Assembly (NCBI RefSeq): GCF_030538285.1
Contig: NZ_JAUNUG010000019.1
Span: forward strand, 1-54,524
DNA length: 54,524 nucleotides
Source of the DNA: Corynebacterium sp.
GTDB lineage: Bacteria; Actinomycetota; Actinomycetes; Mycobacteriales; Mycobacteriaceae
Direction: 5' to 3'
Translations under genes and position numbers: made by a program
The notes under the pieces: model-generated
The model's database searches: none
What the model saw: only the letters and a program-made list of their open reading frames with translations
Told to the model about the DNA's origin: nothing
Part shown: positions 1,004-54,513 of the stretch, one piece after another
How the letters are laid out: each line of letters opens with the position of its first letter
Numbering within the stretch: the stretch's first letter is position 1

Positions 1004-1352
1004 GCAGGGCCCCCAGGCGGGTGAGCGCCTTGCGGATGTCACGCTCCAGATCGCTTGACGACGCCCCACCGGAAGCCGGCAACGCCCGGATAACGAGGTC
1101 AGCGGTGGGGGAGAGGGCGTCGAAAAGCGCTGCCATGACATGGCGTAGCCGCCGGGAGGTGCGGTGACGGATGACCGCGTTTCCGACGGCTTTGGAAACG
1201 ATGAGCCCGACGCGGGGGCCGCCCTGGTGGGCGACCGGTGCGTCGGGCTCATAGAAATGGACCACTACGGTGCGGGTACCGGCGCGGCGTCCACGTTTAA
1301 TTGTCCGGCTGAATTCAGTCGGAGACGTGAACTTGTGCTGCTTCGGAAGCAC
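996..1352 (-). CDS. rnpA: Ribonuclease P protein component
   Basis: Protein subunit of RNase P, which assists the catalytic RNA in removing 5' leaders from tRNA precursors. The 118-aa product starts at GTG 1352 ([14 protein letters not shown]), the standard RnpA beginning. It carries the RNR-like basic motif as [20 protein letters not shown] near residues 54-73, plus the central PRVGLIVSK strand. The open frame continues far upstream through rpmH, but homology begins at 1352. It follows rpmH by 16 nt and overlaps yidD. Length is normal for the family. Confidence 0.94.
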
Positions 1353-1368
1353 CTCGGGTGCGCGTCTT

Positions 1369-1512
1369 TTAAGCGGTGAGCTTGGCGCGGCCCTTACGGC
1401 GACGCGCCGAGACGATGGCGCGACCGGCACGGGTGCGCATACGGGTACGGAAGCCGTGCACGCGTGCACGACGACGGTTATTCGGCTGGAACGTCCGCTT
1501 GCCCTTTGCCAC
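1369..1512 (-). CDS. rpmH: 50S ribosomal protein L34
   Basis: Ribosomal protein L34, 47 aa, very basic. The sequence reads [20 protein letters not shown] and ends GRAKLTA, diagnostic of L34. It starts with GTG at 1512 behind a good Shine-Dalgarno (AAAGGAG, 9 nt upstream). Being short, it is easily missed by ORF callers. It is the first gene of the minus-strand operon that diverges from dnaA across the 1513-2249 intergenic region. There is nothing abnormal about the gene. Confidence 0.96.
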
Positions 1513-1662
1513 GGTTGTTCTCCTTTGAGTTTCTGACGCGGTCGGCCGTACGGGACCGGCAGACCGCTGAAGTTTTCATTAACTTGATGAGATGTGCTGC
1601 GTCCGCACTGACGCGCGGCGGGTGCCGCGGCCCGGTGATCCGGTGCCGACGCTGCTCTCACA

Positions 1663-1708
1663 CACATCCGCCGGCGCCTCCCCGTGACGGGGCGCATCCG
1701 GCGGTGTG
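1663..1708. other. Strong hairpin in the rpmH-dnaA intergenic region
   Basis: The arms CACATCCGCCGG (1663-1674) and CCGGCGGTGTG (1698-1708) pair, with one bulge. They enclose a second stem built from CCCCG/CGGGG. No U-run follows on either strand, so it does not look like a terminator. It lies about 150 nt upstream of rpmH and may sit in that gene's 5' leader or promoter zone. The function is unknown. Confidence 0.5.
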
Positions 1709-1964
1709 ACAGACCCTCACAGACTACGCGAGGAACCACGTCTCGAACAAATTGCCTTTTCCGGCGTGTCGCCGGGGCGGGGTCGGGGGCCCCTGAAATG
1801 ACATTCTTGTGATTAGTGCCAGCTCACCGGGGATGTTTGGGCATTTTCCCAGCGGCCCTCGGGGCGGGCGGAGAAATGGCCGGGCCGTTCGATGGACACC
1901 CACGGGATTCGGTGGGTAACAATGTAGGGACTCACAGAAAACCACAGAGGACCACCAACACCCC

Positions 1965-5445: not shown

Positions 5446-6603
5446 ATCTACATCAGGACGCTGGATCTGCGGGATTTCCGCAGTTGGCCGGAGCTGACGC
5501 TCGAGCTGGAACCGGGAATCACCCTGTTCGTCGGCCGCAACGGCTTCGGTAAAACCAACATCATCGAGGCCGTCGGGTATGTCGCCCACCTCTCCTCGCA
5601 CCGGGTGGCACAGGATGCGCCGCTGGTGCGACAGGGGGCGGACAATGCCCGCGTCTCCGCGACGGCCGTCAACCAGGGCCGCGAGCTGACCACCCACCTG
5701 TTGATCAAACCGCACGCTGCGAACCAGGCGCAGATCAACCGCACCCGACTGGGTTCCCCACGGGAATTGCTAGGGGTGGTGCGCACGGTATTATTCGCAC
5801 CGGAGGATCTGGCGCTGATCAAGGGAGAGCCGGCAGAGCGTCGTCGCTACCTCGATGACATCATCGCCACCCGCACCCCCCGCTTAGCCGGGGTGAAAGC
5901 GGATTATGACAAGGTGCTGCGCCAGCGCAATGCCCTGCTGAAATCGGCGAACTCCGCTTTGCGACGCGGCTACCGCGACGATGACGGCGCCAGTGCCCTG
6001 GCCACCCTCGATGTGTGGGATGGCCAGCTGGCTTCCCTCGGCGCGCAGGTCATCGCCGCGCGCCTGGCCCTGGTCGCAGAACTCACCGAGCTCATCGCCG
6101 AGTCCTATGCTGGCATCGCACCGGAATCACGTCCGGTGCGGGTGGAGTATCGGGGGACGGTGGCGTCGATAAGCAATGAACCAGCAGTGCTCGAGGCGGA
6201 GATGCTCGCCGAGTTGGGCCGGGGACGCAACCGCGAAATTGAACGCGGCATGTCGCTGGTGGGCCCGCACCGCGATGACCTGGTGCTTCATCTGGGGGAT
6301 GCGCCGGCCAAGGGTTTCGCCTCCCACGGGGAGACATGGAGTTACGCGATTGCGTTGCGGCTGGCGGAATTCACCCTGCTACGTCGCGACGGCAGCGACC
6401 CCGTTCTCATCCTCGACGATGTTTTCGCCGAGCTGGATGCCCGGCGGCGCGAAAAGCTCGTTGATCTGGCGGCAGATGCGGAACAAGTGCTCATCACTGC
6501 TGCCGTCGATGGCGATCTTCCGGCCAATATCACCGATACCGCGCGGAAATACGTGGTCACGGTGCGGGATACCGAACAGGGCAGGATCAGTGAGATCCAA
6601 TGA
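5446..6603 (+). CDS. recF: DNA replication/repair protein RecF (no canonical start codon)
   Basis: SMC-like ATPase that loads RecA at gaps with RecOR. Homology starts at [15 protein letters not shown] (base 5449). It includes Walker [10 protein letters not shown], the signature [11 protein letters not shown] and Walker [12 protein letters not shown], and ends in GRISEIQ. In this frame there is no ATG, GTG or TTG before homology begins; the codon where Met is expected is ATC (5446), preceded by AGGTGGA at 5433-5439. The first in-frame GTG (5605) would delete the Walker A. An ATG at 5439 is out of frame by one base. The choices are therefore a non-canonical ATC start, a one-base insertion or a sequencing error. 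The stop overlaps the next gene by 4 nt. Confidence 0.85.
6164..6174 (+). repeat. Clearest copy of the dispersed CGTCGATAAGC motif (inside recF)
   Basis: This is one of about 29 copies in the window of CGTCGA(N)AAGC. Here it is read as GCG TCG ATA AGC within recF, using ATA, an isoleucine codon that is otherwise very rare in these genes. That suggests selection on the DNA word rather than on the protein. All positions are listed in the findings. Confidence 0.75.
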
Positions 6604-7160: not shown

Positions 7161-9907
<2,747 letters not shown>

Positions 9908-11178: not shown

Positions 11179-11255
11179 GGGACGTCGATAAGCACCGTAG
11201 AAGGCCGTACAGGTAACATTGAGGGGTATTTCAACCCCGAAAAAGATAGGTGATC

Positions 11256-13850
11256 ATGAGCGACGACACCACGCAGGGTGGCGGCGACCTCTTCGACCGC
11301 ATCCTCCCCATTGACATCAATGAGGAGATGCAGACCAGCTACATCGACTACGCGATGTCCGTCATCGTGGGCCGAGCGCTGCCCGAGGTCCGCGACGGCA
11401 TGAAGCCCGTCCACCGCCGCATCATGTACGCGATGTTCGACTCCGGCTACCGCCCGGAACGCGGTTATGTGAAGTCCGCCCGCCCCGTCTCCGACACGAT
11501 GGGCCAGTTCCACCCCCACGGCGACGTGGCCATCTACGACACCCTGGTGCGCCTCGCCCAGCCGTGGAACATGCGTTATCCGCTGGTCGACGGCCAGGGC
11601 AACTTCGGCTCCCGCGGTAACGACGGCCCCGCCGCCATGCGTTACACCGAGTGCAAGATGACCCCGCTGGCCATGGAGATGGTCCGCGACATCCGCGAGA
11701 ACACCGTCAACTTCTCCCCGAACTACGACGGCAAGACCCGCGAACCGGATGTCCTGCCCGCGCGCGTGCCCAACCTGCTCATGAACGGGTCCGGCGGCAT
11801 TGCGGTCGGCATGGCCACCAACATCCCCCCGCATAACCTGGGTGAGCTTGCCGACGCCATCTACTGGCTGCTCTCCAACCCGGAGGCGGATGAAAAGGAG
11901 GCCCTCGACGCGTGCATGAGCTACGTCAAGGGCCCGGATTTCCCCACCTCGGGGCTTATCGTCGGCGACCAGGGCATCAAGGATGCCTACACCACCGGTC
12001 GCGGCTCGATCCGCATGCGCGGTGTCACCTCCATCGAGGAGGCGGGCAACCGCCAGACCATCGTCATCACCGAGCTGCCGTACCAGGTCAACCCGGACAA
12101 CATGGTGGCCAACATCGCCGAGCAGGTCGCCGCGGGCAAGCTCGCCGGCATCTCGCGTATCGACGATGAGTCCTCCGACCGCGTGGGCCTGCGCATTGTC
12201 ATCACCCTCAAGCGTGATGCCGTGCCGCGCGTGGTGCTCAACAACCTGTACAAGCACTCCCAGCTGCAGACCAACTTCAGCGCGAACATGCTCTCCATCG
12301 TCGATGGCGTGCCGCGCACCTTGCGCCTGGATCAGATGCTGCGCTACTACGTCGCTCACCAGATCGACGTCATCGTGCGCCGCACCCAGTACCGCCTCGA
12401 TGAGGCCGAGGAGCGTGCCCACATCCTGCGCGGCCTGGTCAAGGCCCTCGATATGCTCGATGAGGTCATCGCGCTCATCCGCCGCTCGCCCACCGTCGAC
12501 GAGGCCCGCTCCGGCCTCATGTCGCTTCTCGACGTCGACGAAGTCCAGGCCGATGCCATCCTCGCGATGCAGCTGCGCCGCCTCGCCGCCCTTGAGCGCC
12601 AGAAGATTGTCGATGAGCTCGCCGAGATCGAGCTGGAGATCGCGGATCTCAAGGACATCCTCGCCAAGCCCGAGCGCCAGCGTGCGATCGTGCGCGAGGA
12701 ACTCGAGGAGATCGTCCGCAAGTACGGCGATGACCGCCGCACCCAGATCATCGCCGCCACCGGCGATGTCTCCGAGGAAGACCTCATCGCCCGCGAGAAC
12801 GTGGTGGTCACCATCACCTCCACCGGCTATGCCAAGCGCACCAAGGTCGACGCCTACAAGTCGCAGAAGCGCGGCGGCAAGGGCGTGCGCGGTGCGGAGC
12901 TCAAGCAGGATGACGTGGTCCGCCACTTCTTCGTCTCCTCCACCCACGACTGGATCCTCTTCTTCACCAACTTCGGCCGCGTCTACCGCCTCAAGGCCTA
13001 CGAGCTGCCCGAGGCCTCCCGTACCGCCCGCGGCCAGCACGTGGCCAACCTGCTGGAGTTCCAGCCGGAGGAGCGCATCGCGCAGGTCATCCAGCTCCAG
13101 ACCTACGAGGACGCCCCCTACCTGGTGCTCGCCACCGCCCAGGGCCGCGTGAAGAAGTCCCGCCTCACCGATTACGAGTCCGCCCGTTCCGCCGGCCTGA
13201 TCGCCATCAACCTCAACGACGGTGACCGCCTCATCGGCGCAGCCCTGTGCTCGGACGACGACGACCTGCTGCTCGTCTCCCAGCTCGGCCAGTCCATCCG
13301 CTTCACCGCCGATGATGACCAGCTGCGCCCCATGGGTCGCGCCACCGCCGGCGTGAAGGGCATGCGCTTCCGCGGGGATGATCAGCTGCTCGCCATGTGC
13401 GTCGTCCGCGACGGCGACTACCTGCTCGTGGCCACCTCCGGCGGCTACGGCAAGCGCACCCCGATGGAGGACTACAACTCCCAGGGCCGCGGCGGCCTCG
13501 GCGTGGTCACCTTCAAGTACACCCCGAAGCGCGGCCACCTCATCGGTGCCCTCGCCGTCGACGAGGACGACGAGATTTTCGCCATCACCTCCGCCGGCGG
13601 TGTCATCCGCACCGAGGTCAACCAGATCCGCCCGTCGTCACGCGCCACCATGGGCGTGCGCCTGGTTAATCTGCCGGGTGACGTCGAGCTGCTGGCCATC
13701 GACAAGAACGTCGAGGAGGAGGGCGAGGAAGAGGCCGAGGCAGTTGCCAAGGGTGACGTCGCAGGCCCGACTGAGCGTGCTCAGCAGAAGATCGTTGTCG
13801 AGGGCATCCAGTCCGTCGACGAGCCTGCCGACTACGAGGACGAGGAGTAG
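11256..13850 (+). CDS. gyrA: DNA gyrase subunit A (valine at the quinolone Ser position)
   Basis: Breakage-reunion subunit of gyrase, 864 aa from ATG 11256 ([16 protein letters not shown]), with AGGTGA just upstream; GTG 11250 is an alternative. The catalytic Tyr is Y130 in GPAAMRYTE. The quinolone-determining stretch reads [19 protein letters not shown]. The residue equivalent to E. coli Ser83 is V91 (GTG), while Asp87 is kept as D95. The C-terminal beta-pinwheel repeats carry the GyrA-box-like [10 protein letters not shown]. The acidic tail ends in DYEDEE. The 5' leader contains a GGGGT/AACCCC hairpin at about 11223-11238. The DUF3566 gene follows after 3 nt. Confidence 0.98.
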
Positions 13851-14198: not shown

Positions 14199-14213
14199 CT
14201 CGCTTATCGACGC

Positions 14214-15851: not shown

Positions 15852-16496
15852 CTACTTCTTATCGCCGGACTCGGCATCCGGGTCGGTGACGTCGTCGACG
15901 GTCTCTTCGTTGATCGGATCCTCCTCGGTCACCTCAACCTCGTCTCCGTCCTCGGAGCGGTGCTTCTCCAGCTGCTCGTCGAGCGAGCCCAGAAGCTCCT
16001 CGTCGCGCTCGGTGGCACCCTCCTCCGGGGAGCCCGGGGTGGTGGTGGAGTAGACAAGCTTCGACTCGGTCTCCGGGGTATCTGCGGAGAAGTCCTCCAC
16101 GCGCGGCGGGACATCGCCCGGGGCCTGCTGCTGGCGGGTGAACCAGTAGACGGCGCCACCGATGGCGGCGACCAGCAGGGCCGCCAGGCCGGCGAGGCTC
16201 CAGTTGCGGCGGCAGCGGGCCTTCTTCGCTCGCTTGCGGGCCGGGGTGTTGTCGGCCACCTTGGCCAGGCGCTTCTTGGCGTCATCCAGGCGCGCGTGGG
16301 CTGCCTGGGTGACTACGCCTGCTTCCTTGCGGCCTTCGTCGAGAAGCTCTTCACCGCGGGAACGCAACTCGTCGATGTCGACGTGATCGGACAGCAGATC
16401 GTAGGCCTCGCGGGCCTTCTTCTCGTTGTACTCCTTGACGCGGTCACGCACGGTGGAGAAACCGTCGATGAGCATCTTGATGGTGGCAGGGTTCAT
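15852..16496 (-). CDS. Single-pass membrane protein with acidic tail, unknown function
   Basis: A 214-aa protein. The N-terminal helical/coiled region (residues 1-90, rich in K/E/R/D) includes REAYDLLSDHVDIDELRSRG. A basic stretch (ARKRAKKARCRRNW) precedes one transmembrane helix, LAGLAALLVAAIGGAVYWF, at about residues 99-117. A long, disordered acidic tail follows (EEDPINEETVDDVTDPDAES). ATG 16496 has a good AAGGAG 8-9 nt upstream. Similar proteins are common in Corynebacterium, but I know of no assigned role. The 294 nt between this start and metF diverge and hold both promoters. Confidence 0.75.
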   Translation of the reverse strand: MNPATIKMLIDGFSTVRDRVKEYNEKKAREAYDLLSDHVDIDELRSRGEELLDEGRKEAGVVTQAAHARLDDAKKRLAKVADNTPARKRAKKARCRRNWSLAGLAALLVAAIGGAVYWFTRQQQAPGDVPPRVEDFSADTPETESKLVYSTTTPGSPEEGATERDEELLGSLDEQLEKHRSEDGDEVEVTEEDPINEETVDDVTDPDAESGDKK

Positions 16497-17825: not shown

Positions 17826-20135
17826 ATGTCTTCCTTCCCCACCTTCACCATCGAGGGCTACCCGCGCGTCGGCGCCAACCGCGAGCTCAAGAAGGCCCTC
17901 GAGTCCTTCTGGGCCGGCCGCATCGACGAGGAGACCTTCGTCTCCTCCGCGCACTCCATCCGCGTCGAGAACTACGCCCGCCTGCGTGACCTGGGTCTCG
18001 ACCAGGACTACGCCATCCCGGCCGACGTCGCCCTCTATGACCAGGTGCTGGAAACGGCCGTCACCGTCGGCCTTATCGGTGGCGACGCCGCCGAAATCGA
18101 CCTCACCGAGTACTTCGCCCTCGCCCGCGGTAACTCCGAGCGCTCCCCGCTCGAGATGACCAAGTGGTTCGACACCAACTACCACTACCTCGTCCCGGAG
18201 GTCTCCGCGGACACCGTCATCACCCCGCGCCCGCAGCGCATCCTCGACATCGTCACCGAGGCCAAGAACGCCGGCCACACCGTCCGCCCGTACCTCGTCG
18301 GCCCGGTCACCCTGCTGGCCAAGTCCAAGGCCACCGAGGACGCCGGCGAAGGCTTCAACCCGCTCACCCGCCTCGCCGACCTGACCGCCGCCTACAAGCA
18401 GGTCCTGGCCGCCCTCAAGGAGGCCGGCGTCGAGTGGATCCAGCTGGCCGAGCCCGCCCTGGTCGCCGACCTCACAATTGCATCTGACCAGGAGCTGGCC
18501 GACCACGCCGCCACCGTCTACGGTGAGATCCTCGGCGAGACCAACCGCCCGCAGGTACTCATCACCACCCCCTACGGCGCCCTGCGCGCCGGTCTCGACG
18601 CCCTCGTCGGCGCCAAGCCGGAGGCCCTGGCCGTCGACCTCGCCCCGGTCACCCTGGGTAACGAGGAGGGCTACGTCGAGCGTGTCGCCAAGGCTCTCGC
18701 CGGCACCGACATCACCCTCGCCGCCGGTGTCATCGACGGCCGTAACATCTGGGCCGCTGACCTGCGCGAGCGCCTGTCCGTGCTGGAGGAGTTGAAGAAG
18801 GGCGGCGTCGAGAAGCTCGCCGTCACCTCCTCTGTCTCTCTGCAGCACGTCCCGCACACCGTCGCCGTGGAGAAGAACCTCCCCGTCGACGTCGCCGGCT
18901 GGCTCTCCTTCGCCGACGAGAAGATCGGCGAGGCCAAGGCCCTGGCCGCCGCCCTCGAAGGTGGCTCCGTCGCCGCAGCCGACGCCTTCGCCCGCTCCGA
19001 CCGCGCCGTGCGCACCCGCCGCGAGTCCGCACGCACCCACAACCAGGCAGTTCAGGACCGCGTCGCCGCGCTTCCCGACGGCCAGGTCGCCCGCCAGCCC
19101 GAGTTCACCGGCCGCGTTGAGGCCCAGAAGGCCCTCGGCCTGCCGCAGCTGCCGACCACCACCATCGGCTCCTTCCCGCAGACCACCGAGATCCGCAAGG
19201 CCCGGGCCGACCACCGCTCCGGCGAGCTCACCGACGAGCAGTACGTCGACGCCCTCAAGGACGAGGTCAAGTCCGTCATCGAGCTGCAGGAACGCCTCGG
19301 CATCGACGTGCTCGTCCACGGCGAGCCCGAGCGCAACGACATGGTTCAGTACTTCGCCGAGCTTCTCGACGGCTTCGTCACCACCGAGCACGGCTGGGTC
19401 CAGTCCTACGGCTCCCGCTGTACCCGCCCCTCCATCGTCGTCGGTGACGTCTCCCGCCCGGAGGCCATGACCGTCGAGTGGGCCAAGTACGCCCAGTCCC
19501 TGTCCGAGAAGCACGTCAAGGGCATGCTCACCGGCCCGGTCACCATCCTCGCCTGGTCCTTCACGCGTGACGACGTGCCGAAGTCCGTCTCCGCCGACCA
19601 GATCGGCGTGGCGCTGGCCGACGAGGTCGCCGACCTCGAGGCCGCCGGCATCGACATCATCCAGATCGACGAGCCCGCCCTGCGCGAGCTGCTGCCGCTG
19701 CGCGAGGAAGACCGCCCCGCGTACCTCGACTGGGCCGTGCGTTCCTTCCGCCTCGTCTCCCTCGACGCGCAGCCGACCACCCAGATCCACACCCACCTCT
19801 GCTACTCGGAGTTCGGCCAGATCATCGACGCCGTCGCCGCGCTTGACGCCGACGTCACCTCCATCGAGGCCGCCCGCTCCCGCATGGAGCTGCTCGCCGA
19901 CCTCGACGACTCCTTCCACTCCGAGATCGGCCCCGGCATCTGGGACATCCACTCCCCGCGTGTCCCGGACGTCGCCGAGCTCACCGAGCTGATTAAGGCC
20001 GCCCTGGTCAACGTGCCCACCGAGCGTCTGTGGGTCAACCCGGACTGCGGCCTGAAGACCCGCGGTTACGAGGAGACCGAGGCCTCCCTGCGCAACATGG
20101 TCCTCGCCCGCGACCTCGTGGTCGAGTCCCTGTAG
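17826..20135 (+). CDS. metE: Cobalamin-independent methionine synthase
   Basis: MetE transfers the methyl group of 5-methyltetrahydropteroyl-triglutamate to homocysteine without B12. The product is 769 aa, the normal length. The N-terminal half begins [20 protein letters not shown]. The C-terminal catalytic half contains [14 protein letters not shown], the zinc ligands in [11 protein letters not shown] (His and Cys) and the final cysteine in [15 protein letters not shown], plus the catalytic IDEPALRE loop. It starts at ATG 17826 with GAAAGG upstream. Codon use is extremely biased (almost only CTC/CTG, GCC), implying high expression. A strong terminator follows. Confidence 0.98.
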
Positions 20136-21556: not shown

Positions 21557-21588
21557 GGCCCGCACGTCGCTTTTCGACGTCGCGGGCC
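21557..21588 (+). terminator. Terminator of ppiA
   Basis: GGCCCGCACGTCG pairs with CGACGTCGCGGGCC, followed by TTTCCCTTTT. The dispersed motif (as GCTTTTCGACG) forms the loop and one side of the stem. Confidence 0.85.
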
Positions 21589-32314: not shown

Positions 32315-32988
32315 TCACCACCGGCGCCGCGCGAGCGCTATTGCGACTGCCCCCAGCACGGCGGCCATGCCGAGCAGCACACCGACTGAGGTGATGTTCC
32401 ACGGCTCGTTCACCCACGAGCGGGCGACCAGGTCCGCCAGTTGATAGGAGGGTGAAAAGTGGAAGATGCGGCGGATGCTCTTGTCGAGGATCGCGACCGG
32501 GACGAACGCCCCGGATGTCAGCATGAGAAGGATCATGAGGATGTTGCCGAGGGCCGCGGCGGCCCCCACGCTGGGCATCAGGCTGCCCAGGGTGTAGTCG
32601 AGGGCCAGCATCGCCGCCGGAGAGGTCTTCCACGCGGGAGGTGGCCTTGTCGCTCATCCGGGTCGCGGGGCGCGGCGTAGAAGGATGCGAACAGGGTGAT
32701 GGTTTCGCGGACTGTCAGGCGGGGCAGGGAGGTGGATTCCTGGTGTTGGCTGCACAGGCGGTGCACCAGTTCGGCGTGGTTGGCGATCGGGTCGAGCCCC
32801 AGTACCTCCACTGTGCCCGCGGTGGGGCGATCCAGACCTTGGATCTGGTTGAGCAGGGTGGTTTTGCCCGAGCCGTTGGGCCCGAGCAGACCGTAGATCT
32901 GGTGCTTATCGACGTCGAGGGTGACATCCTCCAGTGCAATCGTACTGCCGAATTCCCGCCTGACTCCGATGCAGATGATGGCGCTCAT
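32315..32988 (-). pseudogene. Remnant of an ABC exporter (ATPase fused by deletion to permease end)
   Basis: From ATG 32988 the frame encodes a good ABC ATPase N-terminus (MSAIICIGVRREFGSTIALEDV, Walker A GLLGPNGSGKTTLL, CSQHQESTSLPRLTVRETI) up to about 32675. The next frame then gives SDKATSRVEDLSGGD, the ABC signature region, and a third frame (32611-32315) gives the last 98 residues of an ABC-2 permease (VGAAAALGNILMILLMLTSGAFVP...). The Walker B/H-loop part of the ATPase and most of the permease are gone. At least one frameshift and one large deletion are needed. Upstream signals (AGGAAGAGG) are intact. It cannot make a working transporter. Confidence 0.85.
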
Positions 32989-33838: not shown

Positions 33839-34999
33839 ATGGACAATCACTCCACTGACCGGTGGCAGAACCTCCTTGATCGCCTGCAGAAGGACGATGA
33901 GTCGCTGGTGGACACGACGGTGGCGCAGCTGCTCGACACCATTCCGGGATACGGGAAGGTGGGCCCAGCGCCGCTGGCCTTTTCCGTGCGCCGCAACATC
34001 GCGCTGAGTATCCGCATCATCCGCCACGGTGCAGAGCCCACGTTGGATGATGTTCCCGAGGCGCATGCCCTGGCCAATGAACGCCTCGGGCAGGGCGTGC
34101 CGCTGGGTAGCGTGCTCAGCGGTTTCCGTGTCTCCATGATCATGATCCTGCGTCGCCTCATCGCCTTGGCCCCGGAGTTCGACGTCCCCACCGATGAGGT
34201 GCTGGAATGCTCCACACTCTTGTGGTCGCTCGCGGACGCCTTCTCGACGCGGGCCACGGCCGTCTACCGCGACCGGGAGATTGCCCGGGCGGTGGCGGAT
34301 TCCGCGCGCCGTTCCGAATGGATCGGCAACGCGGTCCGGGAGGGGATGGAAGCCTCGGAACTGATGTGGGGTGCGGCCATGTACAACGTGCCCACGGATG
34401 TGCCGCTGCGCGCGGTGGCCGCTTTCTCCACTCTGGCCACCGGAGCGCCAGCGGAACCCCTGCTCGTGGCCTGGGCGGAGCGGTCGGGTCTGCGGCTGCT
34501 CACTTCGGTGCAGTCGAGCATCATCGTCGGCATCCTCATCGGCGAACTCCGCGAGGGGGCGCAGCAGGAAGCCAAGCAGGGGATGGTCATCGGCCTGGGG
34601 CAACCGGAGTTGCTCAGTGAGCTGCACGCTTCCTTCTCCTCTGCCACGCTCGCTCTGCGGGCTGCGGAACAGGTAGGGGAGGAGGGGCTCGTTGACCTGG
34701 AGAATCTCTCGTGGCGGCTGGCCATCCACACGTGCCCGGAGGCGACGGACCTGCTTAAGCGCCGTTACCTGGATCCCCTGCGGGGGGTGGGGGAGTTTCG
34801 CACGGAGCTGCTGGAGTCTGTGCGGGCCTATCTGGAGCACCGGATGAACATTCCGGCGGCGTCGAGAAGCATCCCTGTCCATGTGAATACTCTGCGTTAC
34901 CGTCTGCGGCGATTTGAAGAATTAACTGGTGCGGATTTGGGGGACGTGCAGTCCGTCATTGAGGTCGCGTGGGTATTGGCAGCGCACCCCAAGTTGTAG
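33839..34999 (+). CDS. PucR/CdaR-type transcriptional regulator
   Basis: A 386-aa regulator. The N-terminal two thirds form a sensory region (DTTVAQLLDTIPGYG..., a RsbRD-like beginning, then a GGDEF-derived PucR-type middle). The C-terminal HTH reads SLVLT-like LLESVRAYLEHRMNIPAASRS, then VHVNTLRYRLRRFEELTG, the PucR family DNA-binding signature. It precedes, on the same strand, the putative 3-hydroxybutyrate operon and probably controls it. TACTGT at 33825-33830 is 8 nt before the ATG (near-leaderless). The stop codon lies inside a perfect 16-bp palindrome. Confidence 0.88.
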   Translation: MDNHSTDRWQNLLDRLQKDDESLVDTTVAQLLDTIPGYGKVGPAPLAFSVRRNIALSIRIIRHGAEPTLDDVPEAHALANERLGQGVPLGSVLSGFRVSMIMILRRLIALAPEFDVPTDEVLECSTLLWSLADAFSTRATAVYRDREIARAVADSARRSEWIGNAVREGMEASELMWGAAMYNVPTDVPLRAVAAFSTLATGAPAEPLLVAWAERSGLRLLTSVQSSIIVGILIGELREGAQQEAKQGMVIGLGQPELLSELHASFSSATLALRAAEQVGEEGLVDLENLSWRLAIHTCPEATDLLKRRYLDPLRGVGEFRTELLESVRAYLEHRMNIPAASRSIPVHVNTLRYRLRRFEELTGADLGDVQSVIEVAWVLAAHPKL

Positions 35000-36600: not shown

Positions 36601-37347
36601 ATGCATTCCCTTGCTTCTCGACGTGCCCTCATCACCGGAGGTGCCTCCGGTATCGGCGCTGCCTGCGCCCGCGCCTTCGCCGCGGCTGGTGCCCACGTCA
36701 CCGTGTGCGACATCAACGACGATGATGCCCGCGCCCTGGCCGAGGAAATCGGCGGCGAGCACTGGAGCGTCGACCTCTCCGACACCGTCGCCCTCGAGGA
36801 CCTGAGCCTCGAGACCGACATCTTGGTCAACAACGCCGGTATCCAGCGCATCTCCCCGATCCACGAGTTCGACCCGGGCGACTGGCGCCTGATCAACCGC
36901 CTCATGGTGGAGGCCCCGTTCCTCCTCGTCCGCGCTGCCCTGCCAGGCATGTACGAGCGTGGCTTCGGGCGCATCATCAACATCTCCTCCATCCACGGCA
37001 TGCGTGCCAGCGCCTTCAAGTCCGCCTACGTCACCGCCAAGCACGCCCTCGAAGGCTTCTCCAAGGTCACCGCCCTGGAGGGCGCCGAGCATGGGGTGAC
37101 ATCCAACTGCATCAACCCGGCCTATGTGCGTACCCCGCTCGTCGAAAAGCAAATCGATGACCAGGCCAAGATCCACGGAATCGGGGCGGACGAGGTCGTC
37201 GAAAAGATCATGCTCACCGAATCCGCCGTCAAGCGGCTCGTCGAACCGGAGGAGGTCGCCTCCCTGGCCACGTGGCTCGCCTCCGAACACGCGGGCATGG
37301 TCACCGGCGCCGCCTACACCATCGACGGTGGCTGGACCGCCAGCTAA
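36601..37347 (+). CDS. 3-hydroxybutyrate dehydrogenase (SDR family)
   Basis: A short-chain dehydrogenase of 248 aa, probably oxidising (R)-3-hydroxybutyrate to acetoacetate with NAD+. Seen: NAD-binding TGGASGIG (residues 12-19), LVNNAGIQ, catalytic Ser in INISSIHG, and YVTAKHALEGFSK (YxxxK). The segment AEHGVTSNCINPAYVRTPLVEKQIDDQA is typical of 3-hydroxybutyrate dehydrogenases. It follows the transporter by 18 nt and precedes a CoA transferase that would take the acetoacetate. The start carries the dispersed motif (GCTTCTCGACG at 36613). Confidence 0.88.
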   Translation: MHSLASRRALITGGASGIGAACARAFAAAGAHVTVCDINDDDARALAEEIGGEHWSVDLSDTVALEDLSLETDILVNNAGIQRISPIHEFDPGDWRLINRLMVEAPFLLVRAALPGMYERGFGRIINISSIHGMRASAFKSAYVTAKHALEGFSKVTALEGAEHGVTSNCINPAYVRTPLVEKQIDDQAKIHGIGADEVVEKIMLTESAVKRLVEPEEVASLATWLASEHAGMVTGAAYTIDGGWTAS

Positions 37348-38735: not shown

Positions 38736-39895
38736 GGAACGTCATCGTCGCAGGCATCGGGGAAACCCCGATGGGCCGCTATCCCGACCGCGGCCTGCAC
38801 GCCATGATCGAGGAGGCCGGTAGCGCCGCGCTTATCGACGCCGGCGTCGACCCCGCCCGCATCGGTGCCGCCTACGTGGGCAACTTCGCCGGCCAGCCGC
38901 TCACCGGGCAGGCCCATATGGGCCCGCTGCTCGCCGAGACCCTGGGCATCCCCCATGTTCCGGCGCTGCGCGTTGAAGGCGCGTGTGCCTCCGGCGGGCT
39001 CGCCCTCTACCAGGCGGTACAGGCCATCCGGCACGGCATCCACGACGTCGTGCTGGTCGGCGGCGTGGAGAAGATGACCCACCAGACCACCGCCGTGGTC
39101 ACCGAGGCGCTGACCTCCGCCATGGACGTCGAACTCGAGGCCCAGTCCGGGCTCACCTTCCCCGGCATCTTCGCCATGGTGGCCCACCGCTACTTCCATG
39201 AGCACCGCGACGTCCGCCGCGAAATGGCCCAGGTGGCCGTCAACGCCCACGACAACGCCCTGCTCAACCCCCACGCCCAGCTGCAGAAGGCGATCGACGT
39301 GGACAAGGTGCTCTCCGCCCCCCGCATCGCCGACCCCTTCGGCCTCTACGACTGCTCCCTGGTCACCGATGGCGCCGCCTTCCTCGTGCTCACCGCCGAG
39401 GGTGTGGACACGGCCTCGACGGCGCGCCGGGTGCGCATCACCGGTTCCGGCCACGGCGGCGACACCCTGACGCTGCACGGCCGAAAATCCCAGACCAGCT
39501 TCGCCGCCACCCGGCAGGCCGCGGCCACCGCCTACGAGCAGGCCGGGGTGGGCCCGGGTGACATCGACCTCGCCGAGGTCCACGACTGCTTCACCATCAC
39601 CCAGATCATCAACACCGAGGACCTCGGGTTCTTCGAGCCCGGCCGCGGCGGCGACGCGGTGGCCGAGGGGCGGACGGCCCGCGGCGGCGACATGCCGATC
39701 AACACCTCCGGCGGCCTCAAGGCCAAGGGCCACCCGGTCGGGGCGACGGGCATCAGCCAGGCCATCGAGGTCATCACCCAGCTGCGTGGCGACGCCGGCG
39801 AGCGCCAGGTGTCCACCGCCAACATCGGGCTCACCCACAACCTGGGCGGCACCGCCGGCACCTGCGTCATCAACATCTTCGAGGGAGAATCATGA
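38732..39895 (+). CDS. SCP-x type thiolase
   Basis: A 387-aa thiolase of the SCP-x/SCP2 branch rather than the classical acetoacetyl-CoA thiolase type. The acylated cysteine lies in [16 protein letters not shown] (about residue 88), and histidines lie in [10 protein letters not shown] and [14 protein letters not shown]. It ends [14 protein letters not shown]. In context it would cleave acetoacetyl-CoA (or a longer 3-ketoacyl-CoA) into acyl-CoAs. SCP-x thiolases usually need a DUF35 partner; the short gene downstream looks like that partner, cut down. Confidence 0.88.
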
Positions 39896-40104: not shown

Positions 40105-40721
40105 TTGGCCTCCGGGCGGGGCATCTCGAAGCGGGCCTCTTCGGAGATGGTGAAGTAGGTCGCGGGGCCGCCACCCCGGCTGATGGGGTCAGCCAAGGTG
40201 GTTTGGTAGATGCCGTCGACGAGCAGTGTCTTGTCGATGTGCACGCCTACGACCTCCCCGAACACCATTCTCGTCTCGGTCGGCGCACCGGCGGCATCCT
40301 CCAGATGCACGATCTGCGTGGCGCGGCACTCGAAGACGACGCGGGCCTCGCCGACGTGGGGGACGTCGATAAGCCGGGAGGGGGCGGGGGTGAGCCCGGC
40401 GAGCGCGAACTCATCCACCTCCGGGCCGGTGATCCGCGCCGACTCGTTCATCGCCTCCGCCAGGTCGCGTGTGGCGAGGTTCCAGCAGAACTCTCCGGTT
40501 TCGCGGATGTTGGTCACGGAGTCCTTCTCCCCGATGCTGGCGAATCCGATGAGCGGCGGCGTGTACGAGAAAGCGTTGAAGAAGCTGTAGGGCGCCAGAT
40601 TGAGGGTGCCGTCAGCGGCGCGCGAAGAAATCCAGCCGATCGGGCGCGGCGCGATGATGGCGTTGAAGGGCGAATGCGGCAGACCGTGGCCGGCGGCCGG
40701 CTCGTAGAAGTGGAAGTCCAT
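40089..40721 (-). CDS. Flavin reductase-like FMN-binding protein
   Basis: A 210-aa split-barrel flavoprotein of the flavin reductase-like (DIM6/NTAB) family. MDFHFYEPAAGHGLPHSPFNAIIAPRP is the beginning. IGWISSRAADG, NLAPYSFFNAFSYTPPLIGFAS and the internal SVTNIRETGEFCWNLAT are the FMN-binding blocks. ATG 40721 is supported by TACTGT at 40728-40733 (minus strand), 6 nt upstream; the ORF itself stays open further upstream through the erm leader. The reaction is unknown. It diverges from the erm leader with nearly touching promoters. Confidence 0.87.
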   Translation of the reverse strand: MDFHFYEPAAGHGLPHSPFNAIIAPRPIGWISSRAADGTLNLAPYSFFNAFSYTPPLIGFASIGEKDSVTNIRETGEFCWNLATRDLAEAMNESARITGPEVDEFALAGLTPAPSRLIDVPHVGEARVVFECRATQIVHLEDAAGAPTETRMVFGEVVGVHIDKTLLVDGIYQTTLADPISRGGGPATYFTISEEARFEMPRPEANQSRL

Positions 40722-44691: not shown

Positions 44692-45492
44692 CTACAGCTG
44701 ATCGAGCACCGCTTCCGCCATCGCGCGCTGCCCCAGGGGTGTCGGGTGCATGGGATAGGCGTCCGTCTCCTCCCCGGTGATGTCGGCCCAGCGCTGCACG
44801 GGTTCGGCACAGGCGGAGTGCTCGGATGCGTCCGCAGGCAGGACGAACTCGGCGCCGTGGCGTTCCGCGGCCGCGCGGACCACGTCGTTGATCTGTTCGG
44901 TGAGGGCCACCGCCCAGGCGCGGTGCTCCTCCGGGACGGCCTCCAGCTCCGGACATTCACCCGCCGAGACCAGCGGGAGGTAGCCGGTGGCGATGACCCG
45001 TGCGTCGGGACTGGCCTCCGCGATGAGGCCGTAGACCTCGTCGAGGCGGGCGGGGACGGAGTCGAGCTGTTCGTTGACGGGGGCGTCGAGAAGCGCAGGG
45101 CAGTCGAGCGTTTCGCTCATGGCGCGGCGGAAGCAGCCGGCGATCTCGGCGAAGCGGATGTCGTTGCCGCCGATGGACAGGGTCACCAGATCGGTGTCCG
45201 GGGTGAGGGCGGCGGCCTGGCCGGGGATGTCGGCGGTGACGGCGCTCGAGCAGGTGACGTCCTGACCGGCGGCGACGGGGGCGTCGATAAGCAGGAGGGA
45301 GGGGTAGTTGTCCGCGGAGCGGAAGCACTCGAGGGGGCCGGAGGTCGGGGCGCTGCGGCTGCCCATCGCGGCGAAGGAGTCCCCGAGGGCGACGTAGTGC
45401 CGATAGGTGACGAGTTCCGGTGTCATGTCGGGGGCCGTGCAGGCGGCGAGCAGCCCGGCGCCGAGGAGGGCGGGCACGGCGCGGAAGTTCAT
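44692..45492 (-). CDS. SGNH/GDSL-type esterase lipoprotein
   Basis: A 266-aa exported hydrolase. The N-terminus is a lipoprotein signal with lipobox LLAAC (Cys18). The SGNH blocks are YVALGDSFAAMG (catalytic Ser39), SIGGNDIRFAE (Asn) and the C-terminal DAYPMHPTPLGQ (Asp/His). It most resembles secreted actinobacterial lipases/esterases. ATG 45492 lies 6 nt downstream of TACATT (45499-45504, minus strand), so it is probably leaderless. It diverges from the lipocalin gene. It contains two copies of the dispersed motif (45085, 45283). Confidence 0.9.
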   Translation of the reverse strand: MNFRAVPALLGAGLLAACTAPDMTPELVTYRHYVALGDSFAAMGSRSAPTSGPLECFRSADNYPSLLLIDAPVAAGQDVTCSSAVTADIPGQAAALTPDTDLVTLSIGGNDIRFAEIAGCFRRAMSETLDCPALLDAPVNEQLDSVPARLDEVYGLIAEASPDARVIATGYLPLVSAGECPELEAVPEEHRAWAVALTEQINDVVRAAAERHGAEFVLPADASEHSACAEPVQRWADITGEETDAYPMHPTPLGQRAMAEAVLDQL

Positions 45493-48041: not shown

Positions 48042-48116
48042 GTCGAGTGGGATTGCCGTGGGCGCCACCGGCTACTCGACCTATACCTGTCGAGAAATAC
48101 CTGCCGAGATATACCT
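48006..48116. repeat. Inverted pair of triple 14-bp repeats between convergent genes
   Basis: The left arm 48006-48050 and right arm 48072-48116 are inverted copies. The outer 12 bp (AGGTATATCTCG) and inner 13 bp (GTATAGGTCGAGT / ACTCGACCTATAC, 48036-48048 and 48074-48086) are perfect. Each arm is built from three tandem 14-mers of the type AGGTATATCTCGGC. The stop codons of both convergent genes (48039-48041 and 48116-48118) lie in it. It could fold as a long cruciform or act as a multi-site protein target. Confidence 0.85.
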
Positions 48117-49111
48117 TAGGACCGGTATCCCAGCGGCCCGCTGACACGCATCGTCACCGGGTCCCCGACGTCCGGGCGCGCCCCGCGCACCGTCGCCCGG
48201 AAGACGGTGTCCAGGGCGTCGAGGGTGAGGGACCAGTCGCCGGCGTCATAAAGCACGGAACGCACCTGCGCCGGGATGCCGTCGCAACCGGCGGGCAGCA
48301 CCTCCACCATGTGGGGCAGTACCGCCAACGTCAGGGCCGAACCGCTGCCGATGACCTCGGAGGGCTCGACGTCGAGGGAGGCGGCGTCGAGAAGCGTCGC
48401 GTCCGCGATGAACGCGGCGACCTCGGCGGTGGCCGGGCGTGAGACGAGCTCGGCCGGGGTGGCGATCTGCTGGATCCGGCCCTCGCCGAGCACGACGATG
48501 CGGTCGGCGATGGACAGTGCCTCGGCGCGGTCATGCGTGACATGCACCGTGGTCAGGCCCTCGCGGCGGGTGAGCGAGACGAGTTCGCGGCGCAGGCTGT
48601 CGCGGAGGGGTTCGTCGAGGGCGGACAGGGCTTCGTCGAGAAGCAGGACGGTGGGGTCGGCGACGATGGCGCGCGCGAGAGCCACCCGCTGCCGCTGCCC
48701 GCCGGACAGCGATTCCGGTTTGCGACGCGCGAAACCGCCCATGCCGACCAGCTCGAGGGCGCGCTCGACGCGTTGCCCCCGCTCCCGCTTATCGACGCCC
48801 CCGCGTTTCAGCGGGTACTCCACATTCCCGGCCACCGACATGTGCGGCCACACGGCGTGCTGCTGGAAGACCATGCCCATGCGGCGTTTTTCCGGGGGCA
48901 CGTCGGTGACGTCGCGGCCATCGATGGCGACATGCCCCGCGCTCGGCGCGATGAATCCGGCGATGGTGCGTAGCAGCGTCGTCTTGCCGGAACCGGAGGC
49001 GCCGATGAGGGCGATGAACTCCTCGGGCTGCACGTGGAGGTCGATGTCGGCCAGGCCCGTGGTGCCGTCGGGGAAGGTGACGCGCAGGTCATGGATGTCG
49101 ATGGCGGACAC
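48116..49111 (-). CDS. fbpC: ABC importer ATPase (ferric iron type)
   Basis: ATP-binding subunit of a periplasmic-binding-protein-dependent importer, 331 aa. Walker A GASGSGKTT (37-45), signature ESLSGGQRQR, Walker B VLLLDEALSALDEP and the H-loop HVTHDRAEA are all present. A TOBE-like C-terminal domain of about 90 residues follows. It is the last gene of the fbpA-fbpB-fbpC operon, with a 1-nt gap to fbpB. Ferric iron is the most likely substrate given the FbpB/FbpA partners; thiamine or a phosphonate is possible. Its stop lies in the inverted repeat at 48006-48116. Confidence 0.87.
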   Translation of the reverse strand: MSAIDIHDLRVTFPDGTTGLADIDLHVQPEEFIALIGASGSGKTTLLRTIAGFIAPSAGHVAIDGRDVTDVPPEKRRMGMVFQQHAVWPHMSVAGNVEYPLKRGGVDKRERGQRVERALELVGMGGFARRKPESLSGGQRQRVALARAIVADPTVLLLDEALSALDEPLRDSLRRELVSLTRREGLTTVHVTHDRAEALSIADRIVVLGEGRIQQIATPAELVSRPATAEVAAFIADATLLDAASLDVEPSEVIGSGSALTLAVLPHMVEVLPAGCDGIPAQVRSVLYDAGDWSLTLDALDTVFRATVRGARPDVGDPVTMRVSGPLGYRS

Positions 49112-51794: not shown

Positions 51795-51911
51795 GGCGTT
51801 GTCCTTATGTCCGTACTTGTTTCGGAGCCCCGATCTTCCCACGGGTTCACCGTTCCCGCATGAGATGCGATAGCTGCTTCTCGAGCCGGGAGCTGTCGTA
51901 GGAAGAACAAA

Positions 51912-51958
51912 CCCCTCCGCGGCCTTATCCGGTGTGCGGGCGACCTTATGCGGAGGGG
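51912..51958 (-). terminator. Terminator of the M20 peptidase gene
   Basis: CCCCTCCGC (51912-51920) pairs with GCGGAGGGG (51950-51958). Read on the minus strand it ends TTTGTTCTT. It lies 45 nt beyond the stop of the M20 gene. The loop is long (29 nt), with a repeated CCTTAT. Confidence 0.65.
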
Positions 51959-52003
51959 AATACGCCTGACAGTGTACCCGGATTGACCAGGCATCGGTGG
52001 CAC

Positions 52004-53329
52004 TTACACCCCGCAGAACCGCCGCACCAGGGAGCGGTAGGCGCGCACGGTGAGGTCGAGGTCCTCGAGTTCGATGTACTCGTCGTGGTGGTGGAGGAGC
52101 TGGAAGACGTCGCCGAGCGTGCGCTCGCGGGCGTGGAGGGCGAAGCCGTAGCCGTTGCCGCCGAGGCGGCGGCCGAAGCGCAGGTCGGAGCCGCCGGCCG
52201 CGATGGTTGGCACGACAGGGACGCCGGGGAAGAACTCGTTGAAGGTGGCGACGAGGGCGTCGTACAGCGGTCCCGAGGTGGGGGAGACGGTGGCCGGTTC
52301 GGAAATGAGCCGTTCGATGCGGACCTCGTGGTACATGTCGCCCAGCGCATCGGCGAGGATGGCGTCGACCTCATCCTGCGTGGTGCCGGGCAGGGGGCGG
52401 ATGTCCAGGTCGAGGGTCGCGGACGAGGGCAGGACGTTGATGGCGGTGCCCGCGCGCAGGATCGTCTGCGAAAACGTCAGGCGCGACAGGGCGTGGGCGT
52501 AGCGCTTGAGGTCACCGAAGTGCTCGAAGGCCGTGTCGTCGGTGCCCTCCAGCAGGGCGCGTTCGATCTCCGGGTCAAAGCGGAAGGCGCGGACGAAGCC
52601 CTGCCAGAGGGGGTCGTGGGAGACGGGGACGTCGATAAGCGAGATACGACGGGCGACCTCGCCGATTTTCGCGATCGCCGACTCGCGGCCATAAGGGTTG
52701 GAGCCGTGGCCGGCGTCACCGGTGACGTGCAGGCGGCGCTGGGCAGCGCCCTTCTCGCCGACGACGAGGACGAGGGCGTCGGAGCCGTCGGCGATCGGCA
52801 GGTGCGAGCCGCCGGTCTCCGAGAGGGTGTTGCGCCAGGAAAACGCGTCGGGGTGCTCCTCGGAGAGCCACTTCGCGCCGAGGGTGCCGCGGGATTCCTC
52901 ATCGGCCACACCCACGAAGGTCAGCGTGCCGGTGGGGCGACCGGTACGGGCGGCGTCGCGCAGCACGGCGGCCTGGGTGGCGGTGATGAACAGCATGTCC
53001 ATGGCACCGCGGCCGTAGAGGCGGCCGTCGATGATCTCCGCGCCGAAGGGGTCGACCGTCCAGCGCTCGCGGTCGACGGGCACCACGTCGGTGTGGCCGA
53101 GGAAGGTGAGCGGTTCGGCGGCCGGATCCGTGCCCTGCAAGGTGACAACGATGCTCACGCGCCCCGGAGCCGACTCATAGCGGGTGATTTCCACGCCCGG
53201 GGTGTCGGCGAAGAAGCGCTCGAGGGTGTCGGCATTGCGCACCTCCTGGCCGGAGCCGGGGGTGTAGTCGTTGACGCAGGCATTGCGGATCATCTCGCGG
53301 AGGAGGGCGAGGGTGTCGTCGTAAAGCAT
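52004..53329 (-). CDS. M20/M25/M40 family metallopeptidase
   Basis: A dizinc aminoacylase/carboxypeptidase-type hydrolase of 441 aa. The metal-binding motifs are FLGHTDVVPVD (His, Asp), GRGAMDML (Asp), GVADEESRG (catalytic Glu pair) and the C-terminal LLHHHDEYI. The dimerisation domain carries AGHGSNPYGRES. It most resembles the peptidases annotated as carboxypeptidase/succinyl-diaminopimelate desuccinylase-like; the substrate is unknown. ATG 53329 lies 6 nt after TACCTT (53336-53341, minus strand). It diverges from the BaeRF-like gene. Confidence 0.92.
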   Translation of the reverse strand: MLYDDTLALLREMIRNACVNDYTPGSGQEVRNADTLERFFADTPGVEITRYESAPGRVSIVVTLQGTDPAAEPLTFLGHTDVVPVDRERWTVDPFGAEIIDGRLYGRGAMDMLFITATQAAVLRDAARTGRPTGTLTFVGVADEESRGTLGAKWLSEEHPDAFSWRNTLSETGGSHLPIADGSDALVLVVGEKGAAQRRLHVTGDAGHGSNPYGRESAIAKIGEVARRISLIDVPVSHDPLWQGFVRAFRFDPEIERALLEGTDDTAFEHFGDLKRYAHALSRLTFSQTILRAGTAINVLPSSATLDLDIRPLPGTTQDEVDAILADALGDMYHEVRIERLISEPATVSPTSGPLYDALVATFNEFFPGVPVVPTIAAGGSDLRFGRRLGGNGYGFALHARERTLGDVFQLLHHHDEYIELEDLDLTVRAYRSLVRRFCGV

Positions 53330-53415
53330 GGGTCTAAGGTACCCCGCGATCAACTATGTACCCGATCCTCAACATTGTTAGCTCGCTGTGACCTGAATTT
53401 CAGTAGCGTGGAACT

Positions 53416-54513
53416 ATGAATAACGCACTGATCGATCCGAACACTGACCCTGTCCGCCACGAAGATCTGCGCGCCCTCGCCGAGCTGGACGGCCCCGTCG
53501 TCTCCCTGCTCATCCCCACCCACCGCGGGGGCCCCGAGACCGTCAACGACCACCGCCAGCTCAAGCCGCTTCTCGACGACGCCCGCACCCAGCTCGCCGA
53601 GTCCTTCCCGGACACCGACGCGGATGCCCTGCTCGCCGAGGTCGCCGCACTCGCCGACGACGAGCCGTTCTGGCAGCGCCAGGCCGACGCGCTGGCCGTC
53701 TTCGCCTCCCCGTCCGGCACCCGCTACTTCCGCACCACGCTCGAGGGCCAGGCCCAGGTCAGCGTCGGTGAGTACGCCAACCTGCGCCCGCTGCTGCCGC
53801 TGGTCGCCGACGACATGCCCTTCCTGCTGCTCGCCGTGAGCCAGGACAAGGTCCGCCTGTTCGAGGGTGACCGCAACCACCTCGACGAGCTGCCCCTCGG
53901 TGACGCCCCGGCCTCCACCGACGACTCCGACTACTACACCCGCGAGCCCGAGTTCCAGCACCAGACGGGTGATTCCGCACCGGCCCACGGACATGACACC
54001 GGTGAGAACGTTGTCCGCGACAGCTTCCTGCGCGATGTGGCCAAGGCCGTCAACACCCGCTTCACCAACGATGACCGCCCGCTCATCCTCGCGGCCGTCG
54101 ACGAGCACCGCGGCGGCGTCAAGGATTACCTGCCCAACGTGCAGCTTCTCGACGACACCGTCTCCGGCAACCCCGACCAGCTCAGCGAGGCCGAGCTGCA
54201 TGAGAAGGCCTGGCCGCTGGCCTCCGCCGAGGCGGACAAGCGTCACGATGACCTGCTCGAGCGCTTCGGCGAGAACCTCGGCACCGGCAAGGGCACCCAC
54301 GATGCCGCGAAGATCAGCCAGGAATCCGTGCATGGTCGCGTGGACACGCTCGTGCTGACCACGCTGGCCCTGCGCGAGAACACCCTGGGCGATTCCTCCA
54401 AGGCTGCGGATCTCGACGCCGCCGTCGCCCACACCCTGCGCAACAGCGGCACCGTGGATGTGGTGCCGACCTTCCACGAGGAGCGCGCGGCGGGAGCGAT
54501 CTTCTGCTTCTAG
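53416..54513 (+). CDS. BaeRF-like (archaeo-eukaryotic release-factor fold) protein
   Basis: A 365-aa cytoplasmic protein. SLLIPTHRGGPETVNDHRQLKPLLDDA near the start, RYFRTTLEG and the centre HGHDTGENVVRDSFLRDVAKAV, then PLILAAVDEHRGGVKDY, lead to the terminal AGAIFCF. This layout matches the bacterial archaeo-eukaryotic release factor (BaeRF) families, thought to bind ribosomes or act in stress; the real function is unknown. ATG 53416 lies 6 nt after TAGCGT (53404-53409), leaderless. The gene is complete, ending 11 nt before the window edge. Confidence 0.75.
   Translation: MNNALIDPNTDPVRHEDLRALAELDGPVVSLLIPTHRGGPETVNDHRQLKPLLDDARTQLAESFPDTDADALLAEVAALADDEPFWQRQADALAVFASPSGTRYFRTTLEGQAQVSVGEYANLRPLLPLVADDMPFLLLAVSQDKVRLFEGDRNHLDELPLGDAPASTDDSDYYTREPEFQHQTGDSAPAHGHDTGENVVRDSFLRDVAKAVNTRFTNDDRPLILAAVDEHRGGVKDYLPNVQLLDDTVSGNPDQLSEAELHEKAWPLASAEADKRHDDLLERFGENLGTGKGTHDAAKISQESVHGRVDTLVLTTLALRENTLGDSSKAADLDAAVAHTLRNSGTVDVVPTFHEERAAGAIFCF

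Follow-up and report, generated by a model that had tools for sequence, protein, structure and literature searches.

What keeps one short, asymmetric word recurring across a stretch of bacterial chromosome, in gene after gene and in the gaps between them? The question is raised by CGTCGANAAGC, found in a 54,524-nucleotide stretch of Corynebacterium sp. (assembly GCF_030538285.1, contig NZ_JAUNUG010000019.1; contig C35 of the genome here labelled G000), the whole of which is called the window below. An exact search of the window returns 29 copies, 17 on the plus strand and 12 on the minus strand, with T (11), G (13), C (2) or A (3) at the variable position N. By chance, 0.14 copies are expected (standard deviation 0.35, maximum 1, in 100 dinucleotide-preserving shuffles). 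With one mismatch permitted, 55 sites are found against 4.9 expected, and none of the 26 additional forms in the window is GTCGANAAGC without the leading C. The copies, places, strand split and N variants given in a preliminary description, made by reading the window by eye, were all reproduced; its plus-strand coordinates lie one base further on than those given here, as they start at the G of GTCG and not at the C before it. Its statement that composition predicts far fewer copies also holds, the GC content that it assumed (about 62%) being replaced by the measured 65.8%. The analysis presented here indicates that CGTCGANAAGC is probably a DNA uptake sequence (DUS) of the genus Corynebacterium, in the dialect of this genome.

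The over-representation extends to the whole source genome (2.95 Mb in 94 contigs; completeness 96%, contamination 6.7%). There, CGTCGANAAGC occurs 1,533 times (761 and 772 copies on the two strands), or about once per 1.9 kb, against 19 copies (14 and 5) of the reversed word used as a control. In a 527-kb sample of the same genome, 284 exact copies were counted against 3.5 expected from an order-3 Markov model, with T at N in 148 of them, G in 100, A in 20 and C in 16. The enrichment is also independent of codon usage: 416 predicted genes, called by a simple script, contain 233 copies, against a mean of 17.6 (maximum 23) in 20 protein-preserving synonymous shuffles. Amino-acid words such as LLD or VEK, named beforehand in the preliminary description as what could account for the enrichment, are therefore not the explanation, and the genome-wide, Markov and codon-shuffle excesses support its view that selection or some maintenance process acts on the word itself. 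Predicted genes hold 82% of the copies; at 526 per Mb, the density there is close to the 605 per Mb found outside them.

The sequence constraint is confined to the word. Alignment of 281 sites revealed no conservation beyond the 11 bases, save an upstream G bias, mostly of period three, and slight preferences at the bases next to the word; the similarity past the word that would mark a repetitive extragenic palindromic (REP) element, a miniature inverted-repeat transposable element (MITE) or another mobile repeat is lacking in these sites. The upstream periodicity is read as codon bias, because most genic copies share one reverse frame (135 of 233, reading xLI/LLD). Within the word, numbering its positions from 0, mismatches in the 527-kb sample concentrate at a few places. 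At position 5, A is replaced by G, T and C in 44, 21 and 19 copies (19, 13 and 10 times expectation); at position 8, A to C is found in 37 copies (8 times expectation); position 10 is mildly raised (34 mismatch copies against 8.9), and mismatches at the remaining positions are near background or involve few copies only. The most tolerated mismatch of the source genome is thus at position 5, which is also the position that varies between the dialects of the genus.

The absence of strand bias, suspected from the window, is borne out by the nearly equal genome-wide counts and by ten spaced 20-kb stretches from each of two complete genomes, with 66 plus and 66 minus copies in G099 and 48 and 46 by strand in G143. 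In these stretches, no relation of the copies to GC skew was apparent, as judged by eye. A strand polarity once suspected for two genomes was ruled out, since the plus-only places reflected a forward-first listing. The gaps between copies in the source genome average 1,759 bp, with a coefficient of variation of 0.89.

Across the genus, three patterns were tallied by hand in 151 genomes, including the source genome, with class bounds set by the authors. CGTCGANAAGC reaches at least 60 copies per Mb in 99 of the 151 (98 of the 150 tabulated, plus G001 by hand). In eight others, CATCGNNAAGC takes its place with 625 to 1,337 copies (G143, 1,337; G111, 1,080; G144, 1,063; G006, 1,021; G105, 974; G094, 736; G053, 680; G138, 625), and seven of these eight hold only 6 to 43 copies of CGTCGANAAGC. 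Moderate numbers of CGTCGNNAAGC characterize five genomes (G013, G032, G048, G077 and G123), eight are weak (G041, G062, G073, G084, G120, G129, G132 and G133), and 31 lie at background level, with fewer than 90 copies of each pattern. Copy numbers grade across species from more than 1,000 to about 50. In some genomes, CGTCGBNAAGC dominates over the A form (G113, 1,480 against 272; G001, 1,362 against 256; G056, 1,300 against 232; G099, 1,250 against 289), where B at position 5 covers three letters, so that a ratio of three means no preference. The word-rich genomes sampled span about 50% to 67% GC.

Word counts made de novo agree with the searched patterns: in G053 they yield the CATCGGCAAGC form (TGCCGATGCC, 66 against 1.1), and the TCG and AAGC parts, which are common to all three patterns by construction, were recovered in G053, G099 and G143. 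No other clear dialect was detected in the word-less or weak genomes G014, G147, G120, G041, G133 and G082, from samples of 40–160 kb each in which a rare word could be missed. In the sample of word-less G147 (L046, L107–L112), CGGCGTCC is about threefold over-represented (203 against 63.5), which may be codon-driven. Beyond the genus, 113 genomes from 30 other genera of the family show at most about 32 copies per Mb (G250), the highest ones being two to six times the reversed control. Loci of about 21 kb from named species display the same contrasts, with 11 copies of CGTCGNNAAGC in C. tuberculostearicum and 12 in C. kefirresidentii, 9 copies of CATCGNNAAGC in C. macginleyi and 8 in C. phoceense, and, in both C. 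jeikeium and C. glyciniphilum, zero CGTCG forms and one CATCG form each.

The dialects were placed on a tree of ComEC sequences with 58 rows, of which 55 are from Corynebacterium and 3 from the outgroup; the named locus L144 was left out. On the outgroup side of the tree lie 13 word-less Corynebacterium rows, including C. parakroppenstedtii; in the other clade, the word is present in 39 of the 42 rows, the exceptions being 13CS0277, G132 (weak) and G014. At least two origins of CATCG are needed on well-supported branches. One CATCG pair, G006 and C. macginleyi, is sister to the CGTCG rows C. kefirresidentii, C. tuberculostearicum and strain ACRPO, and the ComEC of the source genome groups with those of C. 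lemuris and C. hylobatis. Among the labelled genomes, G003 has a ComEC identical to that of C. glyciniphilum, and the relaxase of G029 is identical over its full length to one of C. atrinae. The named rows took their dialect labels from about 21 kb of sequence each, and two identical proteins received different CGTCG labels, which makes the two-way split within CGTCG noisy. Because ComEC may itself belong to the system, a tree of the core genome would be preferable.

The word is rare in mobile DNA. The plasmid-like set comprised 19 contig stretches (323 kb), one of which (L090) reads as N; stretch L089, part of a 392-kb contig and likely chromosomal, with 4 copies against 2.9, was excluded. 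The set contains 3 copies of CGTCGANAAGC against 78.3 expected; for CGTCGNNAAGC, 6 copies were counted where the densities of the respective genomes predict 122.7. A TrwC relaxase was recognized in 6 of the 9 large proteins tested, one per plasmid-like contig. Two proteins on plasmid-like contigs, at L086:11901-14747 and L075:1414-4773, are of MmeI-type and type ISP restriction-modification character.

A terminase family was matched in 9 of the 151 genomes, at 13 places. The prophage set consists of seven terminase places in five CGTCG genomes, taken as 20-kb stretches; the L240 terminase falls below the family cut-off and is 58% identical to a Corynebacterium phage terminase. The seven stretches contain 15 copies of CGTCGNNAAGC against 61.8 expected (0, 7, 6, 1, 1, 0 and 0 per stretch), and in the 7- and 6-copy stretches the terminase sits in a copy-free gap of 13.8 and 12.2 kb, respectively, with all 13 copies beyond it. 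Three isolated Corynebacterium phages hold 2, 5 and 1 copies of CGTCGNNAAGC in 45, 41 and 40 kb. As side observations, the extra contig G112:C2 (L091, 48 kb) has a large terminase match and is perhaps a phage-plasmid; the score and frame length of the match recur at a place on the chromosome of that genome. The best relatives among the 12 rows listed for the terminase of L241 (G112:C1:236400-256399) are phages of Streptococcus and Oscillospirales or gut phages, at 75–78% identity, which is unusual for an element of Corynebacterium.

Over-representation, strand symmetry, rarity in mobile DNA, dialects around a fixed core (TCG..AAGC) and occasional loss together form the pattern of the DUS of Neisseriaceae and the uptake signal sequence (USS) of Pasteurellaceae, and for this reason uptake is favoured. 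The preliminary description had left four options, of which an uptake signal fits best in view of the depletion in mobile DNA, the dialects and the distribution; the other three, a site for a nucleoid protein or a structural maintenance of chromosomes (SMC) complex, a hotspot of recombination and a target of modification, seem less suitable. We infer that, in most species, DNA would be taken up by a surface receptor, perhaps part of a Tad pilus, and then pass through ComEA and ComEC. A receptor with a preference for word-bearing DNA would favour the entry of such fragments, and their recombination into the chromosome, over those lacking the word, and copies would build up, in either orientation, wherever chromosomal DNA recombines. 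Plasmids and prophages spread by other routes and would stay poor in the word. A change of the receptor in a species could lead to a new spelling, either a CGTCG form in which position 5 is not A, or CATCGNNAAGC. In its fullest form, the proposal is of a working self-DNA tag without precedent in Gram-positive bacteria and recognised by a Tad component, with dialects that partition DNA exchange within the genus, and gained once after the split from the side of C. jeikeium and C. glyciniphilum to be switched or lost repeatedly thereafter; for this extended version we regard the chances as evenly balanced.

The genes for such a route are present. ComEC lies above the cut-off in 151 of 151 genomes, and comEA adjoins comEC in all 28 loci read, with Pfam assigning a helix-hairpin-helix to ComEA and the Competence domain to ComEC. 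In the source genome, comEA–comEC is directly ahead of a gene that we take to be holA, with what are presumably rpsT and lepA further on. Its tad locus (C45:138,959-142,629) encodes an ATPase, two T2SSF proteins and a TadE-like protein, next to what we assume to be a helicase and a cold-shock gene. The Tad ATPase is above the cut-off in 142 of the 151 genomes (any match, 148), TadB/C (PF00482) in 138 (any match, 143), and a TadE-like protein was found in 30 of the 30 genomes searched. The eight genomes missing PF00482 are word-less (G024, G028, G128 and G146), weak (G073) or word-rich (G071, G075 and G119). The gap in G071 is attributed to an assembly break, since its ATPase and TadE-like matches sit at contig ends, and the assemblies of G075 and G119 are incomplete (90% and 53%). 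TadB/C and ATPase matches are often weaker in word-less genomes, a difference not separable from phylogeny. In two word-bearing genomes, the ATPase match comes in two pieces (G101:C2:174454-175475 and G112:C1:297808-298844), where the gene may be broken or misassembled. The length of ComEC, which seemed to separate word-rich from word-poor genomes (Mann–Whitney p 3e-7), was rejected as evidence: the difference is mainly due to N-terminal extensions in one clade, and the four ComEC proteins scanned (word-bearing G000 and G006, word-less G147 and G030) have the Competence domain only, so that length is regarded as a clade marker and not as functional evidence. A parallel exists in the actinobacterium Micrococcus luteus, where Tad pili and ComEA/ComEC are described as serving transformation; the term 'uptake sequence' is absent from the text of that paper (PMC4322843). 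Corynebacterium has genes of these kinds, as a putative counterpart of that machinery.

Comparison with established tags shows both likeness and difference. In Neisseriaceae, eight DUS dialects share a CTG core, and five genomes of the family are without an obvious DUS (PMC3630211). The Corynebacterium word resembles the DUS in its length of ten to twelve bases, its very many copies, its dialects with an invariant core that follow phylogeny and the existence of genomes without it (PMC3630211). It differs in having an unrelated sequence, in belonging to a Gram-positive phylum and in accompanying Tad genes instead of type IVa pili; furthermore, the neisserial DUS has the ComP receptor, whereas both a receptor and a role in uptake are hypothetical for the Corynebacterium word. 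With the USS it shares the nature of an abundant chromosomal word, which in the USS is tied to self-DNA preference (PMC12616744). Its sequence is different, and the main flank signal here is the codon-periodic upstream G bias. The USS has AT-rich flanks, which are not seen around the Corynebacterium word. HIP1 of cyanobacteria is likewise a very abundant dispersed short word, of debated function, and is a palindrome, unlike the asymmetric word of Corynebacterium. Chi and the FtsK-orienting polar sequences (KOPS) are short over-represented chromosomal words that are strand-polar along the replichore, a polarity that the Corynebacterium word does not have.

Several observations weigh against uptake as the explanation. 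Rarity in mobile DNA would also be expected if the word marked the chromosome in some other manner or accumulated slowly, and phage Juicebox, with the 5 copies in 41 kb, exceeds the 18 per Mb of other genera. The mainly CATCG genome G143 has 117 copies of CGTCGANAAGC and 235 of CGTCGBNAAGC as well. The machinery does not track the word, because comEC and tad genes are also found in word-less genomes; their presence in word-less and word-rich genomes alike makes uptake possible, yet is no test of it. No convincing residue pattern of ComEA or ComEC follows the dialect, with only four CATCG rows to compare; one column in each protein is alike in all four and rare in CGTCG rows, and 2 columns of ComEA and 22 of ComEC partly fit a shared change, but these fits may be due to chance and no weight is placed on them. 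Close inverted pairs, examined in the source genome only, are not enriched (5 pairs less than 50 bp apart against 7.3 expected), a further difference from the neisserial DUS, for which such pairs at terminators are a frequent, though not a defining, companion. Genic copies are not clearly crowded toward gene ends, as the uptake word is in Pasteurellaceae (PMC2346458).

The main rival is a chromosome-organising site, bound along the chromosome by a nucleoid, SMC or segregation protein. It would explain the rarity on plasmids and prophages, and the copies are indeed spread along the chromosome; among three genomes, with variance-to-mean ratios of the counts per 20 kb of 0.84, 0.23 and 1.61, a distribution clearly evener than chance is seen in a single one. 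Neighbouring copies also tend to alternate: in the 527-kb sample, 151 adjacent pairs are of opposite and 108 of like orientation (p 0.009). However, strand polarity is absent, most copies lie inside predicted genes, and dialect switches between sister species and a whole clade without the word would be odd for a housekeeping site. The origin of replication gives no support either. Seven TTATCCACA DnaA boxes lie around dnaA (2250-3722), between positions 1973 and 3970, and therefore the window spans the origin; its 29 copies in 54.5 kb are about the genome average, without excess. We consider this explanation unlikely.

Less probable again is a relic, an ancestral uptake sequence lingering in species that no longer take up DNA. 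The graded copy numbers, the eight weak genomes and the excess of one-mismatch forms in the source genome sample (256 in total against about 83 expected) would suit decay, but exact copies there stand at 80 times expectation, and the one-mismatch excess lies mainly at the apparently tolerated positions 5 and 8, not evenly as decay predicts. Marginally behind it, and also improbable, comes a self-mark by which the word would shield the chromosome from a defence system acting on plasmid and phage DNA. The strong depletion in plasmid-like contigs and prophage stretches and the species dialects agree with such a role. Selection should, however, favour plasmids and phages that gain the word, yet few copies were present in those examined; moreover, a site with ten fixed bases and no symmetry does not resemble the usual restriction sites. 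Least credible of all is a recombination hotspot of the Chi kind, serving a nuclease in double-strand-break repair. A short, abundant, chromosomal word that is rare in mobile DNA would suit such a role, but Chi sites as known favour the leading strand, the strand counts here are balanced (66/66 and 48/46) and show no visible relation to GC skew, and the length and dialect switching are unlike Chi.

If the word does serve uptake, it would be, as far as we found, the first DNA uptake sequence in Gram-positive bacteria, self-DNA uptake tags being known so far only from two Gram-negative families. Among the matches listed in literature searches, which left most subscription journals outside, no paper dealt with this word or with a Corynebacterium uptake sequence; judging by title, the papers listed for the word or one of its variants appear to concern primers or unrelated matters, and natural transformation in Corynebacterium was not reported by any of the papers listed. 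A third independent case, in a Gram-positive group and with a different pilus, would imply that self-tagging of DNA evolves repeatedly, and natural transformation would be predicted in Corynebacterium, a genus known for pathogens as well as for industrial and skin species. Through the dialects, the prediction of uptake lends itself to a direct test, and they hint at obstacles to the exchange of genes. Plasmids and prophages would also be flagged by the word, as gaps; the distribution of DUS has been used for spotting mobile elements (PMC7371117).

Table 1. Copies of the word in the window, with the base at N and the gene context; 'outside CDS' (coding sequence) refers to the calls of a simple gene caller. 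ORF, open reading frame.
Copy	Position	Strand	Context
N=A	1118..1128	+	outside CDS, left of dnaA
N=T	6164..6174	+	recF-position ORF 5605-6603
N=C	9817..9827	+	ORF 9278-9907(-)
N=T	11183..11193	+	outside CDS
N=G	12524..12534	-	ORF 11250-13850(+)
N=T	14202..14212	-	outside CDS
N=G	16337..16347	+	ORF 15960-17765(+)
N=G	18806..18816	+	ORF 17826-20135(+)
N=G	19361..19371	-	ORF 17826-20135(+)
N=A	21569..21579	-	outside CDS
N=C	23205..23215	+	PASTA-kinase gene 23038-24978(-)
N=T	24264..24274	+	PASTA-kinase gene 23038-24978(-)
N=G	24809..24819	-	PASTA-kinase gene 23038-24978(-)
N=T	27852..27862	+	ORF 27802-29157(-)
N=G	30880..30890	-	ORF 30588-31052(-)
N=T	32904..32914	-	outside CDS
N=G	34860..34870	+	ORF 33788-34999(+)
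N=G	36613..36623	-	start of ORF 36601-37347(+)
N=A	37140..37150	+	ORF 36601-37347(+)
N=T	38830..38840	-	ORF 38732-39895(+)
N=T	40364..40374	+	ORF 40089-40880(-)
N=G	45084..45094	+	ORF 44692-45492(-)
N=T	45282..45292	+	ORF 44692-45492(-)
N=G	48385..48395	+	ORF 48116-49111(-)
N=G	48634..48644	+	ORF 48116-49111(-)
N=T	48787..48797	-	ORF 48116-49111(-)
N=T	52630..52640	+	ORF 52004-53353(-)
N=G	53568..53578	-	ORF 53416-54513(+)
N=G	54144..54154	-	ORF 53416-54513(+)

The copy within the ORF at 5605-6603 had been singled out in the preliminary description for imposing the codons TCG ATA AGC on recF. These codons are present, in the context GCG TCG ATA AGC AAT; the name recF is less secure, since the match to RecF/RecN/SMC is below threshold and the assignment rests mainly on the position of the ORF between dnaN and gyrB. 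Finally, a second cluster of three TTATCCACA DnaA boxes was observed at 22.3–22.5 kb of the window (22277-22491).

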